Assembly (NCBI GenBank): GCA_903906515.1
Contig: CAIVKO010000156.1
Location: forward strand, 1 to 64,000
Direction: 5' to 3'
From: Akkermansiaceae bacterium
GTDB taxonomy: Bacteria > Verrucomicrobiota > Verrucomicrobiia > Verrucomicrobiales > Akkermansiaceae
Length of the DNA: 64,000 nucleotides
Within the stretch, counting starts at the first letter, position 1. Each line of letters begins with the position of its first letter. Below, in pieces: positions 46,311 to 54,538 of this stretch. Under the pieces are notes generated by a model. That model saw only the letters and a list, made by a program, of their open reading frames with translations, searched no databases and was not told the DNA's origin. The translations under genes and the position numbers were made by a program.

Positions 46311-46765
46311 ACTCCGTGGAAATACGTCAACTCGAAGTTTCCGAACTCGATGATGCCGCACGTTTGTTAGGTATCCTCAATCCGGACATCCCCCTGCCCG
46401 TCGTGAGCGAACGCCTCGCGACCATGACGGCCGATCATCCGCACTATCAAATCGCCGGTGCATTTTCTGACGGAAGGCTCGTCGGCGTCTGCGGGGCTTG
46501 GGTTTACACCAAAATCTGGTGCGGTCGGCATCTCGAAATCGACAATCTCGTAGTGGACCCCGAGCTACGAGGATCGGGGATCGGCACACATTTCATCCGT
46601 CACTTCACCGCCCTTTCCCGCGAGCTTGGTTGCAACTCGATGACGCTGGACAGCTACGCCAGCAACCAAGCCTCACACCGCCTCTATCAACGTCACGGCT
46701 TCGAGCCGTGGAGCATTCATTTCGTCAACCCGATCGGAAATTGGAAGGGCATCGACCCCACGTGA
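46307..46765 (+). CDS. GNAT-family N-acetyltransferase
   Basis: A 152-residue acetyltransferase. The acetyl-CoA-binding segment is VVDPELRGSGIGTHFIRHF, followed by the typical LDSYASNQASHRLYQRHGFE. The acceptor is unknown. It overlaps the nuclease gene by 4 bp (ATGA) and the following glycosyltransferase by 4 bp (GTGA), so the three genes are coupled. Confidence 0.88.
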   Translation: MNSVEIRQLEVSELDDAARLLGILNPDIPLPVVSERLATMTADHPHYQIAGAFSDGRLVGVCGAWVYTKIWCGRHLEIDNLVVDPELRGSGIGTHFIRHFTALSRELGCNSMTLDSYASNQASHRLYQRHGFEPWSIHFVNPIGNWKGIDPT

Positions 46766-48942
46766 CCGTAGCCATCGTCCACTATCATCTCGGCCCTGGC
46801 GGAGTCTCCCGTGTCATCGCCGACGCCTCACGCGCCCTGACGTCCGCCGGAGTTCGGCACGTGGTCTTGATCGGTGATGGGGAAACCGTGGCCCGGGCAT
46901 CCTGCCCGGAGCCTTCTAGCCCACCCACCCGCACCATCCCAGGCCTAGGCTACCTGCCGACCCCCGGAACGCTAACCGCATCCACACTGACAAGCAATCT
47001 CCGCGCCGCCGCATACGACGCGCTCGGCGGCCCTCCAAAAATCTGGCATTTCCACAATCACTCGCTCGGAAAAAACGTGCTGATCGCCGAGGTTGTCACA
47101 CTGCTCGCCATGGAAAACGAGCGGATCGTGCTGCAAATCCACGACCTCGCGGAAGACGGCAGACCGGAGAACTGCCAGATCATTTCCAACAACAGCAGGA
47201 TCTATCCATTTTCACCGCGCATTCAATACGCATTCCTCAACTCGCATGATCTCCAGATCTTCACCAACGCAGGACTCCCTAGGAAAAACGCATGCATCCT
47301 AGCGAACCCCATCACCCCGTCCTTAACTCCATCATCAACCAACAACAAGCAATCCCCTCCGCTGCTTTTCTCACCCGTGCGGGGCATCCGCCGCAAGAAC
47401 CTTGGCGAACTCGTATTTCTATCAGCCCTGGCACCCGAAGGAACACGCGTCGCCATCAGCCGCGCCCCGCTCGATCCAGCCGCACTGGCTATCCATGACA
47501 GATGGAGCCGGTTCGCGCGTCGCCAGGGATTACCGATCGGCTTCGGGGTGACAGACCGTTTCATGCCCGCACCCGGTGCATCCGCCGGTTTCGAGTCGTG
47601 GCTTTCACACGCCACACACATCATCACCACCTCGGTTTCTGAAGGATTCGGACTGCCATTTCTCGAAGCCGCCGCGTATGGAAAACCGCTGATCGGCAGG
47701 AATATCAAGCACCTCACAAACGATCACGCGGACCATGGAATCCGCGCCGGCAATCTCTACGACCAATTGCTCATCCCCGTGGATTGGATCGACTTCACCA
47801 TTCTCCGCGATCATCTCAAAACAACCCTCGAGCGGAATTACCGCTGCTACGAACGCCACCTTTCCAATGAAACCATCGCAGCCAACTTCGCCGCCCTCAT
47901 TCACGATGGCTGGTTGGACTTCGGCAATCTGCCAGAACCCCTGCAACAGGGAGTGATCGAACGTATGAAAGACCCAGAAAGCCGGAATGTCCCGCTTGTG
48001 AAACTGGGTAATGAAACCCACCCCGCAATCGATTGGTTGGCCGCCGCCATTGAAAACCGCACACCCACGGCCACTCCGGATCAATTGGAGCCATACTCGA
48101 TTGAATCCTATCAGAAAAAACTCACGGCCCTTTACACCCGTCTTTCGCGCAGGGTTGCCTCAACCGTACGATTTGTCCCGCCGGAGAAAATACTGACCCA
48201 CTTTCTTGCGCCGGATGCATTTCATTTCCTGCTTTCCTCCATCGGCCCAGCCGCACATCCACCTCCCTATCGTGCGGTGGTTTTCGACATCTACGGCACG
48301 CTGCTCATCGCCCAGGAAGGCGGCGTGAAGCCCGATCCCGATGCGGACCCGATGCTGCGCGAAATTCTCAAAAACGCCGGCTACACACCACCCGAGTCAC
48401 CTAGCACGGAGTTGCATGAAGCGGTCCTCCGCCACCATGCAGCAGCAGATGTCCCCTTCCCCGAAATCGACCTCCGGATTTTGTGGCGGGAATTACTCTC
48501 ACTGGAGCCCGGAACCGACCTCACCGAGTTGATCGAAACCCTCGAAAACGCATGGCACCCCACGAGACTCATGCCCGGAGCGGAGCAATTCATTGGTCGT
48601 CTCGCCAGATCCGGCATCTCGCTCGGACTTCTTTCCAACGCGCAGTGCAACACACTCGCATCGCTTGGCGGCATCGCCGAATTGTTCGCTCCGGAACTCA
48701 CCATCCTTTCCTTTCAACACGGCATCGCCAAACCATCGCCGGAACTCTTCCAAATTCTAACCGACCGCCTTGCAGGCCGCTGCATCTCACCGGAGGAGAC
48801 GCTCTACATCGGCAATGATCCCATCCGCGACATCACACCCGCCGCCGCGCATGGCTTCCAAACCGCCCTTTTCACCGGTCACCCCGAATCCCTCCGGCCC
48901 GGTGATTGCAAACCGGACCTCACGCTCACCGCATGGCCATGA
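46762..48942 (+). CDS. Glycosyltransferase-HAD phosphatase fusion
   Basis: A 726-residue two-domain protein starting at GTG 46762, which overlaps the GNAT stop. Residues 1 to about 470 look like a GT4-type glycosyltransferase: VAIVHYHLGPGGVSRVIADA at the start, and EGFGLPFLEAAAYGKPLIG from Glu294 as the donor-binding block. Residues about 505-726 form a HAD hydrolase: Asp509 in VVFDIYGTLL, LSNAQ and GNDPIRDI. Sugar transfer coupled to phosphate removal (as in trehalose or glucosylglycerol synthesis) is one possible reading, not shown. Residues 42-52 (TVARASCPEPS) come from an inserted repeat. Confidence 0.75.
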   Translation: MTVAIVHYHLGPGGVSRVIADASRALTSAGVRHVVLIGDGETVARASCPEPSSPPTRTIPGLGYLPTPGTLTASTLTSNLRAAAYDALGGPPKIWHFHNHSLGKNVLIAEVVTLLAMENERIVLQIHDLAEDGRPENCQIISNNSRIYPFSPRIQYAFLNSHDLQIFTNAGLPRKNACILANPITPSLTPSSTNNKQSPPLLFSPVRGIRRKNLGELVFLSALAPEGTRVAISRAPLDPAALAIHDRWSRFARRQGLPIGFGVTDRFMPAPGASAGFESWLSHATHIITTSVSEGFGLPFLEAAAYGKPLIGRNIKHLTNDHADHGIRAGNLYDQLLIPVDWIDFTILRDHLKTTLERNYRCYERHLSNETIAANFAALIHDGWLDFGNLPEPLQQGVIERMKDPESRNVPLVKLGNETHPAIDWLAAAIENRTPTATPDQLEPYSIESYQKKLTALYTRLSRRVASTVRFVPPEKILTHFLAPDAFHFLLSSIGPAAHPPPYRAVVFDIYGTLLIAQEGGVKPDPDADPMLREILKNAGYTPPESPSTELHEAVLRHHAAADVPFPEIDLRILWRELLSLEPGTDLTELIETLENAWHPTRLMPGAEQFIGRLARSGISLGLLSNAQCNTLASLGGIAELFAPELTILSFQHGIAKPSPELFQILTDRLAGRCISPEETLYIGNDPIRDITPAAAHGFQTALFTGHPESLRPGDCKPDLTLTAWP
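46885..46917. repeat. In-frame half palindromic element in the GT-HAD gene
   Basis: Thirty-three bases that match 52466-52498 inside hrpA in 32 positions. In both genes the reading frame is the same, giving TVARASCPEPS. Only the right half of the palindrome seen in hrpA is present here. Confidence 0.85.
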
Positions 48943-50621: not shown

Positions 50622-50803
50622 GTCCTACGAACCTACGGATGGTTTCACACCGCGCGCCGACATTCGAACAAACTCGTAGACGTGACCACGGTCGCGAAGA
50701 GGGTTCATGTTGCCGAGAAATATATCCCGCGCCATAAAACCATGGCGTTTCGGGCTTTTCCAATCGCGTCATGCCGGATAGTCCTGCCTCACGGCGGATT
50801 GTC

Positions 50804-53800
50804 ATGTCGGAATTTTCAGGAAATTGGAACTACCCCAAGGAACTCCCGGTTGTCGAACACCGGGAGGAAATCCTTGATGCCCTGAAATCCAACCAGGTGA
50901 TCGTTGTCGTCAGCGACACCGGCTCTGGAAAAACCACCCAGCTTCCTAAAATGGTTGCGGAGGCAATGGGCCCAGAGGGCGGCCGCATCGGCTGCACCCA
51001 ACCCCGCCGCATCGCCGCAGCCAGTGTCTCAAAACGCGTGGCGGAGGAACTGCGCGTGCCACTCGGCGGCTTCGTCGGATACCAAGTCCGCTTCGAAGAC
51101 AAGACCACCCGCGACACTCGGATCAAGTTCATGACCGACGGCATCCTCCTCGCCGAAACCCAAGGCGATCCCGAACTTCTTCAATATCAAGTGCTTATAC
51201 TCGATGAAGCTCATGAACGATCGCTTAATATAGACTTTTTATTAGGTTATTTAAAGCAACTGCTTAAAAAACGAAAAGACCTCAAGCTCGTGATTTCTTC
51301 GGCCACCCTCGATGCCGGATCGTTCGCCGCGTTTTTCGAAATGAACGGTCAGCCCGCACCGGTGATCGAGGCCCCTGGCCGGATGTTTCCGGTGGCGGAG
51401 TTTTTCCTACCGCCGATGGAGGACGAGGACCTGCCGCAGCACGTCGCGCGGGCGGTCGATTGGCTGGGCAGCGTGGAACCGCATGGCGACATGCTGGTTT
51501 TCCTGCCGGGAGAGCGCGAAATCCGCGAATGCGCCGATGTATTGGAAGGCTGGAAATTTCCACATACCGAGGTGCTGCCATTGTTCGCCCGTCTCGGCCT
51601 GGCCGACCAACAACGGGTGTTCAATCCGGGAAACCTCCGCCGAATCATCCTCGCCACCAACGTGGCGGAAACCTCACTCACCATCCCTCGGATTTCCTGC
51701 GTGATCGACTCCGGCGTCGCCCGAGTGAACCGCTGGAGCCCGGGAAAAGGTGTGCAGCGCTTGCAGATCGAGCCAGTTAGCCAGGCCAGCGCCCGACAGA
51801 GAAAAGGCCGTTGCGGCCGCGTGCGGGATGGCGTCTGCCTGCGCCTCTACGAGGAAAACGAATTGGAGGAGCGCCCGGAATTCACCGACCCAGAGATCCG
51901 CCGCAGTTCGCTCGCCGGCGTGATCCTGCGGATGAAATCGCTGGGCCTTCCGGAGATCGAAGAGTTTCCGTTTCTCGACCCCCCATCGCCCAAGGCAATA
52001 TCGGAAGGCTACCGCACGCTGCGCGAGGTGAACGCCCTAGACCGCGAGAAGAACCTAACGGATTACGGTCGTCGCATGGCGCGCCTGCCGGTAGACCCGC
52101 GATTGGGGCGGATGTTGATCGAGGCGAAAAAGGAAAATTGCATTGCGGAAATGCTGCCGATCATCGCCGCGCTGGAGTCCAATGATCCGCGCGAACGCCC
52201 ATCGGAAAAAACCCGCGAGGCAGATGCCGCGCATGCCCGCTGGAAAGATGGCGAAAGCGATTTCATCGGTATTCTGAGAATGTGGAAGGATGTCTCTAAA
52301 TTCCGTGATGGCCGCCGCGGATGGAAACGCAACGCCCTGCGGAAATACTGCACCGGAGCATTCCTCAACGCCCGGCGCGTGATCGAGTGGGCGAATGTGG
52401 CGGATGAGCTGGAGGAATTGTTAGTGCGCGAGTGGAAGATAGGCGGCGGGCAAGATGCCCGCGCCACCGTGGCCCGGGCATCCTGCCCGGAACCTTCTTA
52501 CCCCTACGCCGCCATCCACCGATCCCTGTTAGCCGGCGTCCCCCGGCAGTTCGGTTTGTGGGACCGTGAGAGCAAATCCTATCGCAGCGCGTCCGGCGGA
52601 TTTTTCGCGGTGTTTCCCGGGTCTGCCTTGTTTGGACTGCCCAAACGCTGGGAATGGGTGGTGGCCATGGAACTGGTCGAAACCTCGCGGCTGTGGGCGC
52701 GGCGGGTCGCGCGCATCGATCCGGAGTGGGTCGAGCAAGTCGCCCCGCACCTGTGCCGGAGTCGCTATGGAGAAGCGCATTGGGACGAAGCCCAAGGCGC
52801 GGTCTATGGCAAGGAAACCGTGATCTGCGGAGGACTCCATGTCATCGTGGGACGGCGCGTGCATTACGGACGGGTCGATCCCAAAGTGGCCCATGCCGTG
52901 TTCCTGCGCGAAGGATTGTTAGGCGGAGGACTGCGCAAGCGCGGGCGCTTCGTCGATCACCTGGAAGAAATGCGCGATGCCATCGGCGAGATCGAGCAAA
53001 AGCTCAGAAGGCCCGGCGGATTGTGGAGTGAGGATGCCATCCTGCGATTTCTTGAACGCACGATTCCGGAGAACATCCACACCGCGTCGGCCTATCACAC
53101 ATGGATCACGCAACACGAGGACGCCTTGATGCTTGGCCTCACGGATGTGCTCGACGAGGATGTGGGCGCTCTCGGATTGGAAGGGTTTCCCGATACGCTG
53201 CACCATGATGGAGAGGACTATCAGATGTATTATCACACCGCTCCCGGCCAACGCGACGATGGCGTCACACTCGGCCTGCATGTGGATCAACTGCCTAAAC
53301 TCCCGGCATGGCTGCCAGGCTGGGGCGTTGATGGAAACCTGCTGGAGCGTGCGGAAATCCTGCTACGCTCGCTACCGAAAGACTACCGACGCGCCTGCCA
53401 ACCGATCGGCCCGGTGGCGGAGGGGTTTGCGGACCTGTGGAGTTACGCGCCCAAGGACAGCTCGCTTTTCCAGGCTCTATCCGATTATGTCCGGGAAAGA
53501 ACCGGCGCGGTCGTGCCCGTGGACGAGTATGATTCAACCAAACTCCCGCCCCACCTCGTCACCAAGATCTGGGTCTGCGACGACGATGGCACGGAACTCG
53601 CAATGGGCGAGGACGTCGCGGTCTTGAAACTCCAACTCGCCGACCGGATGCGCGTGCGTTTCGAAGCCGCAGCGAATGCTGAAATCGAACGATCTGGCAT
53701 CAGCTCGTGGGATGGTGAAAAACTTCCTGAACGCATCGAAACACCGGGTGGACCGGCATTCCCCGCACTGGTGGACGAGGGCAAAAGTGTCGGCGTCAGA

Positions 53801-54538
53801 GCGTTCACCAACGCCGCCGAGGCTGCGGAGTCCCAGCGCGCCGGCGGAGCACGCCTGCTCTGGATCGCTCATACGGCACAAGTCGATCACCTCAAAAAGA
53901 AGTTTCCGTTAGGTCTCATGGCCAAAGTCGAACTTCCGCGACTCGGCACCGGCGGCACCTCGTTGGAGGATCTCATTTTGTTAGCAGCCGAAGGTGCCGC
54001 GGGCGGGGTGTTCCCCACATCGCCGGATGCCTTCCGCGCCCTCAGCGAAAAAGCACGCGGTCGTTGGCACGAGGCGGCCACCGTGATCGGGAAAAGCCTG
54101 GATGAAATCCTCGAAATCCTGCCCGAGATCCGCATCTGGATCGCAGCCCACCGCAAGGACCGCAATCTCGGCGAAATCGCCGAAGACCTCGACGAACAAC
54201 TCACCTGGCTCTTCCGCCACCGTTTCGCCTGGCGGGCAGGATTTTCCGGACTCCGCGACTACCCGCGCCGCCTGCGCGCCATCCGCTCGCGGATCGGACG
54301 CATCAACTCACTGCCCATCGTCAAGGACCTGGAAAAACTGCAACGCCTCCGCCGCCACTGGCTGCCATGGTTCCAACGCTGGACTGCGGATCCTGACAAC
54401 CCGAACCTATGGCCGCACGGCTGGGCACTCGAAGAACTCCGCATCTCACTCTTTGCACCGGACATCCCCTGTAACACCAAGGTATCCGAAAAACGTATCG
54501 AGGAAATGTGGAATTCTATCAAACGTTCAGGTCAATGA
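50804..54538 (+). CDS. hrpA: DEAH-box ATP-dependent RNA helicase HrpA
   Basis: A large DEAH-box helicase, about 1244 residues. P-loop GSGKTT is at 40-45, DEAH at 134-137, SAT follows, then the helicase C-terminal, HA2 and OB regions and the DUF3418 C-terminus typical of HrpA. It probably remodels mRNA or stalled translation complexes. I prefer the ATG at 50804; one 11 codons upstream (50771) is possible. Two oddities: residues about 549-565 come from an inserted palindromic element, and codons around the DEAH box (51191-51280) are strikingly AT-rich. It is convergent with hsdR, 28 bp apart. Confidence 0.93.
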   Translation: MSEFSGNWNYPKELPVVEHREEILDALKSNQVIVVVSDTGSGKTTQLPKMVAEAMGPEGGRIGCTQPRRIAAASVSKRVAEELRVPLGGFVGYQVRFEDKTTRDTRIKFMTDGILLAETQGDPELLQYQVLILDEAHERSLNIDFLLGYLKQLLKKRKDLKLVISSATLDAGSFAAFFEMNGQPAPVIEAPGRMFPVAEFFLPPMEDEDLPQHVARAVDWLGSVEPHGDMLVFLPGEREIRECADVLEGWKFPHTEVLPLFARLGLADQQRVFNPGNLRRIILATNVAETSLTIPRISCVIDSGVARVNRWSPGKGVQRLQIEPVSQASARQRKGRCGRVRDGVCLRLYEENELEERPEFTDPEIRRSSLAGVILRMKSLGLPEIEEFPFLDPPSPKAISEGYRTLREVNALDREKNLTDYGRRMARLPVDPRLGRMLIEAKKENCIAEMLPIIAALESNDPRERPSEKTREADAAHARWKDGESDFIGILRMWKDVSKFRDGRRGWKRNALRKYCTGAFLNARRVIEWANVADELEELLVREWKIGGGQDARATVARASCPEPSYPYAAIHRSLLAGVPRQFGLWDRESKSYRSASGGFFAVFPGSALFGLPKRWEWVVAMELVETSRLWARRVARIDPEWVEQVAPHLCRSRYGEAHWDEAQGAVYGKETVICGGLHVIVGRRVHYGRVDPKVAHAVFLREGLLGGGLRKRGRFVDHLEEMRDAIGEIEQKLRRPGGLWSEDAILRFLERTIPENIHTASAYHTWITQHEDALMLGLTDVLDEDVGALGLEGFPDTLHHDGEDYQMYYHTAPGQRDDGVTLGLHVDQLPKLPAWLPGWGVDGNLLERAEILLRSLPKDYRRACQPIGPVAEGFADLWSYAPKDSSLFQALSDYVRERTGAVVPVDEYDSTKLPPHLVTKIWVCDDDGTELAMGEDVAVLKLQLADRMRVRFEAAANAEIERSGISSWDGEKLPERIETPGGPAFPALVDEGKSVGVRAFTNAAEAAESQRAGGARLLWIAHTAQVDHLKKKFPLGLMAKVELPRLGTGGTSLEDLILLAAEGAAGGVFPTSPDAFRALSEKARGRWHEAATVIGKSLDEILEILPEIRIWIAAHRKDRNLGEIAEDLDEQLTWLFRHRFAWRAGFSGLRDYPRRLRAIRSRIGRINSLPIVKDLEKLQRLRRHWLPWFQRWTADPDNPNLWPHGWALEELRISLFAPDIPCNTKVSEKRIEEMWNSIKRSGQ
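51191..51280 (+). other. AT-rich patch inside hrpA
   Basis: By count, 29 of these 90 bases are G or C, while the flanking parts of the gene are strongly GC-rich. The stretch encodes the DEAH motif region with codons such as TTA, ATA, CTT and AAA that are rare elsewhere in the gene. The reading frame and protein motif are intact. Confidence 0.85.
52448..52498. repeat. In-frame palindromic element in hrpA
   Basis: Two 18-base arms, 52448-52465 and 52471-52488, pair in 16 of 18 positions around a 5-base loop and are followed by ten more conserved bases. The element is read through in frame (GQDARATVARASCPEPS). The right half recurs at 46885-46917. Confidence 0.85.

Follow-up and report, generated by a model that had tools for sequence, protein, structure and literature searches.

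The window, the whole 64,000-nucleotide stretch of an Akkermansiaceae genome analyzed here, contains two genes on its forward strand that carry copies of one small palindromic element, classified below as a REP: hrpA, encoding a DEAH RNA helicase (positions 50771-54538), and the gene of a GT-HAD protein (46762-48942). Read directly from the sequence, the hrpA element (52442-52499) is a tail-to-tail pair of hairpins with a 1-nt spacer and the junction CCAC-C-GTGG. Its left unit (52442-52467, forward strand; GGCGGCGGGCAAGATGCCCGCGCCAC) ends in CCAC and contains the hairpin GCGGGCA-AGA-TGCCCGC (52446-52462). The right unit (52469-52499, forward strand) starts with a GTGG tag (52469-52472), followed by the hairpin CCGGGCA-TCC-TGCCCGG (52474-52490) and by a conserved tail that contains CT dinucleotides. 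The units are inverted relative to each other, and each by itself makes a hairpin with a 7-bp stem and a 3-nt loop. The GT-HAD gene holds a single unit on the same strand (46885-46917; GTGG at 46888-46891, hairpin at 46893-46909), identical to the right hrpA unit at 32 of 33 bases and read in the same frame. Folded as single-stranded DNA, both hairpins of the hrpA copy form separately (z -3.6), and the GT-HAD half copy gives a z of -4.0. Within the 64-kb window, the core GGCATCCTGCCCG is matched perfectly at exactly two places. The dimer is translated without stops as GQDARATVARASCPE in HrpA, and its second half as TVARASCPEPS in the GT-HAD protein. A preliminary description of this DNA had claimed a palindromic element lying in frame within two unrelated proteins, with its right 33 bases recurring in equal frame with one mismatch, and both claims are borne out. 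Its "18+5+18" hairpin gives a fair account of the palindrome, but overlooks that each arm is itself a hairpin. The shared peptide in the two proteins would be due to a small mobile DNA hairpin that landed in both genes.

Comparison with relatives supports the insertion of this element. In HrpA, the insert comprises residues 558-577, between the Pfam domains HA2_C (442-499) and OB_NTP_bind (582-660), and E. coli HrpA shows a gap opposite it when the two are aligned. The peptide is carried at the same place by 2 of 24 HrpA relatives and is absent from the other 22; the HrpA element is therefore an insertion, and the alignment that the preliminary description had called for does not reveal a peptide common to all homologs. 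On the 25-row HrpA tree, the trait requires two changes of state, which may represent two arrivals, or one arrival followed by losses. The named HrpA relatives put the genome close to Akkermansiaceae and Luteolibacter. Two HrpA relatives (L051:4092-4922 and L069) also share an extra insert of about 40 residues (ERESPDSHAHEGRRKRVKPQSP...) ahead of the REP dimer. In the GT-HAD protein, of which Pfam at 1e-5 detects only the HAD part (503-698) and for which a PDB search at 0.001 gave no match, the insert starts at residue 42, after LIGDGE. This peptide was found in none of the 28 readable GT-HAD relatives (29 aligned, L097 being unreadable there). Inspection by eye of the site DNA in nine relatives identified a clear, diverged double hairpin in four (L077, L078, L079, and L088) and a decayed one in L082, indicating that the GT-HAD site was used more than once, or drifted. 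In an AlphaFold model of the HrpA segment (mean pLDDT of 52.5, too poor to show the surface loop expected in the preliminary description), the insert falls within a low-confidence stretch (116-137). We propose that both inserts lie in variable protein stretches where an in-frame peptide is tolerated.

The genome-wide search suggested in the preliminary description uncovered a dispersed family. The palindrome core CGGGCANNNTGCCCG has 48 copies in the 4.48-Mb genome versus none for the reversed control, which excludes chance, and a 76-bp query yielded 56 matches. The loci retrieved from this genome contain 36 REP sites, single or dimeric, and the GTGG tag is present in many of the listed copies beyond the two in the window. 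Further in-frame REPs occur in a ClpB-like AAA gene (L028), a GT11 glycosyltransferase (L010), a vWA protein (L009), and a PurL-type protein with AIRS_C and GATase_5 domains (L027); among the genes of this genome with in-frame REPs, insertion was judged against relatives for HrpA and GT-HAD only. At the genus level, at least one core was found in 48 of 73 genomes, and at least 20 cores in nine. At another locus of the same genome (L013, C99:1-5000), REP copies at 1503 and 3451 lie near the starts of two different genes, for a NuoE-like protein and a PQQ-propeller protein, within nearly identical surroundings (KKEEAMADPHQRGVGQ[ND]ARTT), as if a longer unit including the start codon had been copied.

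A candidate enzyme for this family is encoded on contig C35. Seven Y1_Tnp matches were detected in the genome, and two such domains lie on C35 in a single 1425-aa open frame that constitutes the C-terminal part of the methionine synthase MetH. The first of these transposases, a REP-associated tyrosine transposase (RAYT) at metH site 1, is bordered by REPs matching the HrpA copy. Close relatives of this RAYT, 71 to 80% identical, occupy the same site in three other genomes of the genus, and the four genomes with a close RAYT at metH site 1 (G000, G108, G111, and G113) contain 48, 41, 22, and 219 REP cores, respectively. Among the 69 remaining genomes, five have at least 20 cores; Fisher's test for the association gives 1.2e-4, a value that overstates it, since the genomes are related and kinship was left uncorrected. 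For the five core-rich genomes without a close metH site-1 RAYT (G070, G089, G090, G109, and G112), another enzyme or a loss must be assumed. The same core borders the metH site-1 RAYT in three of the four genomes (G000, G108, and G113), with seven cores at the G113 metH locus, whereas the G111 RAYT has no GGGCA...TGCCC core beside it and ends in the variant GGGCG-TCC-CGCCC. In G113, which has 42 Y1_Tnp matches, no cores were found in the flanks retrieved at 16 other RAYT loci (flanks of 15 to 1552 nt, 3 of the 16 loci being incomplete). The closest solved relative of the RAYT is TnpArep (4ER8), a weak match (E 0.023). Taken together, these data make the metH RAYT the likely cognate enzyme of the window REPs. 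In G113:C115 (L144) and G108:C24 (L177), REP units have been amplified into tandem arrays next to the RAYT; the frame stays open through them, and MetH and IspG contain long repetitive peptides as a result.

On these features, the window repeat is best filed as a GTGG-tagged REP of the GTAG superfamily. Its 7-bp stem falls within the range of this superfamily (mostly 6 to 9 bp, with a short loop, here of 3 nt); the unpaired GTAG-type tetranucleotide at one end is present as GTGG, differing from the commoner GTAG; the copies are numerous (48 cores), and both single and dimeric sites occur among the 36 in the loci retrieved; and the RAYT flanked by a matching repeat corresponds to a REPtron. The CT dinucleotides of the tail could serve for cleavage, as TnpAREP cuts single-stranded REPs at CT. 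The system shares with known REPtrons the HUH and YI..NP motifs of the transposase and the REP hairpins on both sides, and with the REPs of S. maltophilia the perfect stem and 3-nt loop, as described in the parts of PMC6006769 and PMC8266576 on which we draw. It is also reminiscent of Opitutus terrae, a verrucomicrobium for which the sections of PMC3733652 used here report many intragenic REPs: GTGG is the tag in the majority of GTAG-20 units, and GTAG-19 forms tail-to-tail dimers with a 1- to 2-bp spacer. The present repeat shares the phylum and the short hairpins with the O. terrae REPs (GTAG-17 to -20), the GTGG tag with GTAG-20, and the dimers with GTAG-19, a likeness by description; those sections concern REPs within genes, whereas here whole RAYT genes lie in frame within host genes. 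Judged from its sequence features, the small window element belongs to an already known REP type.

Two other origins of the element have to be weighed at this point. The kinship with Rickettsia palindromic elements that the preliminary description had suggested is understandable, since those too are palindromic, dispersed, and found in frame within coding sequence (PMC3733652, in the sections used here), but it is not borne out. According to the same sections, the Rickettsia repeats carry a CGTC tag, lack associated transposase genes, and are set apart from the GTAG REP/RAYT superfamily, whereas the present repeat has GTGG in place of CGTC, forms tail-to-tail dimers, and borders a RAYT. We therefore consider it very improbable that the window copies belong to the Rickettsia palindromic elements, or that they are an unrelated MITE mobilized by a DDE transposase. 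Lower still stands the idea that the repeated peptide is ancestral, or arose by chance from low-complexity DNA; the sequence is GC rich and the linkers involved are variable, but the empty reversed control, the HrpA relatives without the peptide, and the two changes on the HrpA tree rule it out. The REP identity of the window elements and their insertion are very likely.

It is probable, and we hold this with good confidence, slightly reduced by the variant ends in G111, that the window elements are REP copies dispersed by a RAYT, with the C35 metH RAYT as the likely enzyme. In the mechanism we propose, a REP, a GTGG-tagged perfect hairpin of 7 bp with a 3-nt loop found singly or as a tail-to-tail dimer, would be spread by a RAYT. 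The C35 RAYT, which is bounded by matching REPs and is itself inserted in frame at metH site 1, would cut and move the window REPs as single-stranded DNA, and the split host enzymes would still work. Both the mobility of RAYT and REPs and the function of the fused enzymes are what we infer from these arrangements. As an alternative source of the HrpA dimer, we considered the deletion of a RAYT from between two REPs. Since the metH element reads GTGG-hairpin-RAYT-hairpin-CCAC, such a deletion would leave GTGG on the outside, whereas the HrpA dimer has GTGG inside, and this origin is disfavored.

Residence of a RAYT inside a host reading frame is widespread in the genus. With the C35 metH RAYT as the query, relatives were found at 1e-8 in 66 of 73 genomes, and 97 of 150 among the matches listed lie in open frames of at least 400 aa; since this query is itself an in-frame RAYT, in-frame relatives are favored, and the census covers insertions along the host strand. 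The loci retrieved contain 96 in-host RAYT domains in 52 of the 73 genomes, located in ispG (34, two sites), metH (27, two sites), leuS (18), carB (5), hsdR-like genes (4), alaS (2, partial RAYT), and 6 other hosts. One minus-strand ispG RAYT (L135, G063) is missing from this count and from the RAYT tree, the identity comparisons, and the analyses of insert ends and selection given below; L225 was left out for a flank that is not protein-like, and the ispG locus L189 has its N-terminal flank out of frame. At the class level, relatives were found at 1e-15 in 93 of 286 genomes, and 40 loci, chosen for their long frames and hence uninformative on frequency, include as hosts valS, clpB, dnaE, sua5, priA, a DinG-like helicase, SNF2, and a glycosyltransferase, labels assigned by eye from the flank sequence. 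In the glycosyltransferase (L293), the insert occupies a place in the N-terminal domain that looks similar to that of the window GT-HAD element.

Several further hosts deserve mention. Besides housekeeping genes, restriction-modification genes (hsdR types and DNA methylases, labeled by motif or by eye) frequently host in-frame RAYTs, among them L133, L139, L204, L210, L212, L222, L224, L256, L259, L264-L266, L269, L274-L276, and others. The alaS genes of L135 (plus strand, G063:C87) and L145 (G084:C211) contain an in-frame partial match to the RAYT profile, covering positions of about 90-186 only, which may represent another RAYT lineage or a decayed RAYT. At L288 (G350:C330), two nearly identical tandem RAYTs and REP-coded repeats share one frame, with upstream sequence that is not protein-like.

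In the fusion proteins scanned with Pfam, which include nine class-level loci (L255, L258, L268, L270, L271, L285, L287, L290, and L293), host domains were detected before and after the insert, or spanning it. At 1e-6, Pfam recognized Y1_Tnp in 12 of the 17 fusions, the ispG fusion of the genome studied here (L126) being among those without a call, and no intein (Hint) domain appeared among the matches at 1e-6 in these 17 proteins. At the DNA level, 90 inserts with 150 nt or more on each side were compared; in 82 of them, the sequences before and after the RAYT form an inverted repeat whose score exceeds the 99th percentile of a null built from other sites (medians of 26.75 and 8.5). In the examples inspected, the insert ends are themselves hairpins with loops such as TCC, TCT, and TTC, often behind GTGG, and their stem sequences vary between sites.

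The RAYT family is under purifying selection. Both HUH histidines are kept in all 143 RAYTs, and the Tyr of YI..NP, which we take to be the catalytic tyrosine, in 141 of 142, so that these proteins show the HUH motif and tyrosine of Y1 transposases. The dN/dS values are 0.04 to 0.28 in 19 of 22 pairs, with two of the 19 dS values above 1.8 and near saturation; of the other pairs, one is identical and two are saturated.

The RAYTs group by the site they occupy. On a tree of 143 RAYTs, built without the two partial alaS rows, the site label changes 30 times, versus a mean of 97 after shuffling (0 of 200 shuffles as low); in this tree and in the comparison of host and RAYT identities, L186, an ispG2 insert, carries the ispG1 label. 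The carB, metH site-1, DinG, clpB, and sua5 RAYTs each make up one side of a starred branch, and those of metH site 2 one side of a weak branch (64). leuS requires four changes, of which at least three are forced by starred branches, and the restriction-modification rows are scattered over the tree: the nine of them require 8 changes, a number as low as which is reached in 64 of 500 shuffles. By our reading of the 73 genomes, 35 carry a RAYT at ispG site 1 and 33 have the site empty, with 5 undetermined, the empty count taking in scarred genomes and G104, which has a site-2 RAYT only. Fourteen genomes have no ispG match at 1e-40 other than the full fusion, which is therefore probably functional there. 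Some empty ispG alleles (G070, G075, G113, and G109) retain, by eye, an in-frame scar, which is either a REP or the start or end of a RAYT.

On a 45-row host tree (seven ispG rows being dropped for missing motifs), ispG occupancy changes 12 times; shuffling gives a mean of 14.7, and 42 of 500 shuffles need no more than 12 changes. Using the rows with long flanks, RAYT and host distances are uncorrelated for ispG (rho 0.08, 27 rows) and leuS (rho 0.01, 14 rows) and moderately correlated for metH site 2 (rho 0.50, 9 rows). Among eight ispG pairs with a host distance below 0.06, the RAYT distance exceeds 0.40 in three and is below 0.15 in five, indicating that both replacement and inheritance occur. 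In G120 and G061, the ispG host parts are 98.3 and 96.7% identical and the RAYTs 44.3%; the metH values for these two genomes are 98.5, 95.3, and 54.5%, and those for leuS in G110 and G078 are 97.1, 98.0, and 50.9%. The reverse case is found in G081 and G122, whose metH inserts are identical within host flanks that are 92.4 and 91.3% alike in protein. Their DNA is identical over the insert, 20 nt to its left, and 40 nt to its right, where the first mismatch stands (the second follows at about 63 nt), and host DNA farther out is 68 to 98%, mostly 70 to 90%, alike. A short co-conversion would fit this pattern, and homologous recombination alone could also produce it.

Could the fusions be assembly or binning artifacts of metagenome-assembled genomes? 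Many of these genomes are fragmented, several REPs lie at contig ends, and the one-contig genomes G036 and G103 have no fusion among the matches listed; against this, the one-contig genomes G076 (in metH) and G060 (in ispG) do have fusions, which moreover are seen again in dozens of genomes, their frames unbroken and with signals of selection, so that artifacts can hardly account for them. A more serious alternative is domestication: the in-frame RAYTs would be host domains passed on by vertical inheritance and performing a cellular role in the split enzymes, with the REPs as by-products. The purifying selection, the recurrence of sites across the class with RAYTs grouped by site, the five close ispG pairs with close RAYTs, and the metH site-2 correlation would agree with domestication, and TnpAREP is termed a domesticated transposase in the part of PMC8266576 consulted. 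However, vertical inheritance sits poorly with the nearly even split of ispG site 1 into occupied and empty alleles, with the repeated changes of its occupancy, with the three close ispG pairs carrying distant RAYTs and the lack of correlation in ispG and leuS, with hosts 95 to 98% alike holding RAYTs 44 to 55% alike, and with the existence of deletion scars. We consider domestication unlikely.

We lean instead toward a reading in which the RAYT/REP systems of Verrucomicrobiae are site-dedicated, in-frame homing elements. Inteins and homing endonuclease genes lie in frame in conserved genes, form site-dedicated clades, are patchily distributed, swap between alleles, evolve under purifying selection, and decay. 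The in-frame placing, site clades, patchiness, swaps, selection, and decay described here would parallel them. The differences are that inteins have a Hint splicing domain, whereas none was detected in the 17 fusions and the insert seems to remain part of the protein, and that homing genes encode an endonuclease, whereas the enzyme here is an HUH transposase. In this life cycle, each RAYT lineage would be specific to a single site of a single gene (metH, ispG, leuS, carB, clpB, sua5, the DinG-like helicase, and others), would invade empty alleles horizontally, and would remain translated as a passenger domain without splicing. In-frame deletion would then reduce it to REP scars, opening the site to reinvasion. 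Residence in a gene that may not be disrupted would protect the transposase, and the small window hairpins would be the nonautonomous side of the RAYT/REP cycle. On these comparisons of genes and trees, the balance tips modestly in favor of such a homing-like cycle.

RAYTs are usually described as stand-alone, domesticated genes of unknown benefit. The known REPtrons, in the accounts drawn on here, are genes of their own, whereas in the present system the open frame runs on beyond both ends of the RAYT and joins it to the host protein at recurrent sites. We found no report of in-frame RAYTs at dedicated sites in housekeeping genes in the open-license literature. One RAYT survey discarded unexpectedly long proteins, according to the portion of PMC6006769 used here, and in-frame fusions may have been hidden in this way. 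If the homing-like reading is correct, these RAYTs would represent a new strategy for selfish elements, which would reside in frame in indispensable genes and do without splicing of the intein type. RAYT/REP movement would become testable on alleles of a single gene that are naturally occupied, empty, or scarred, and the in-frame RAYTs would supply many natural domain insertions for protein engineering.
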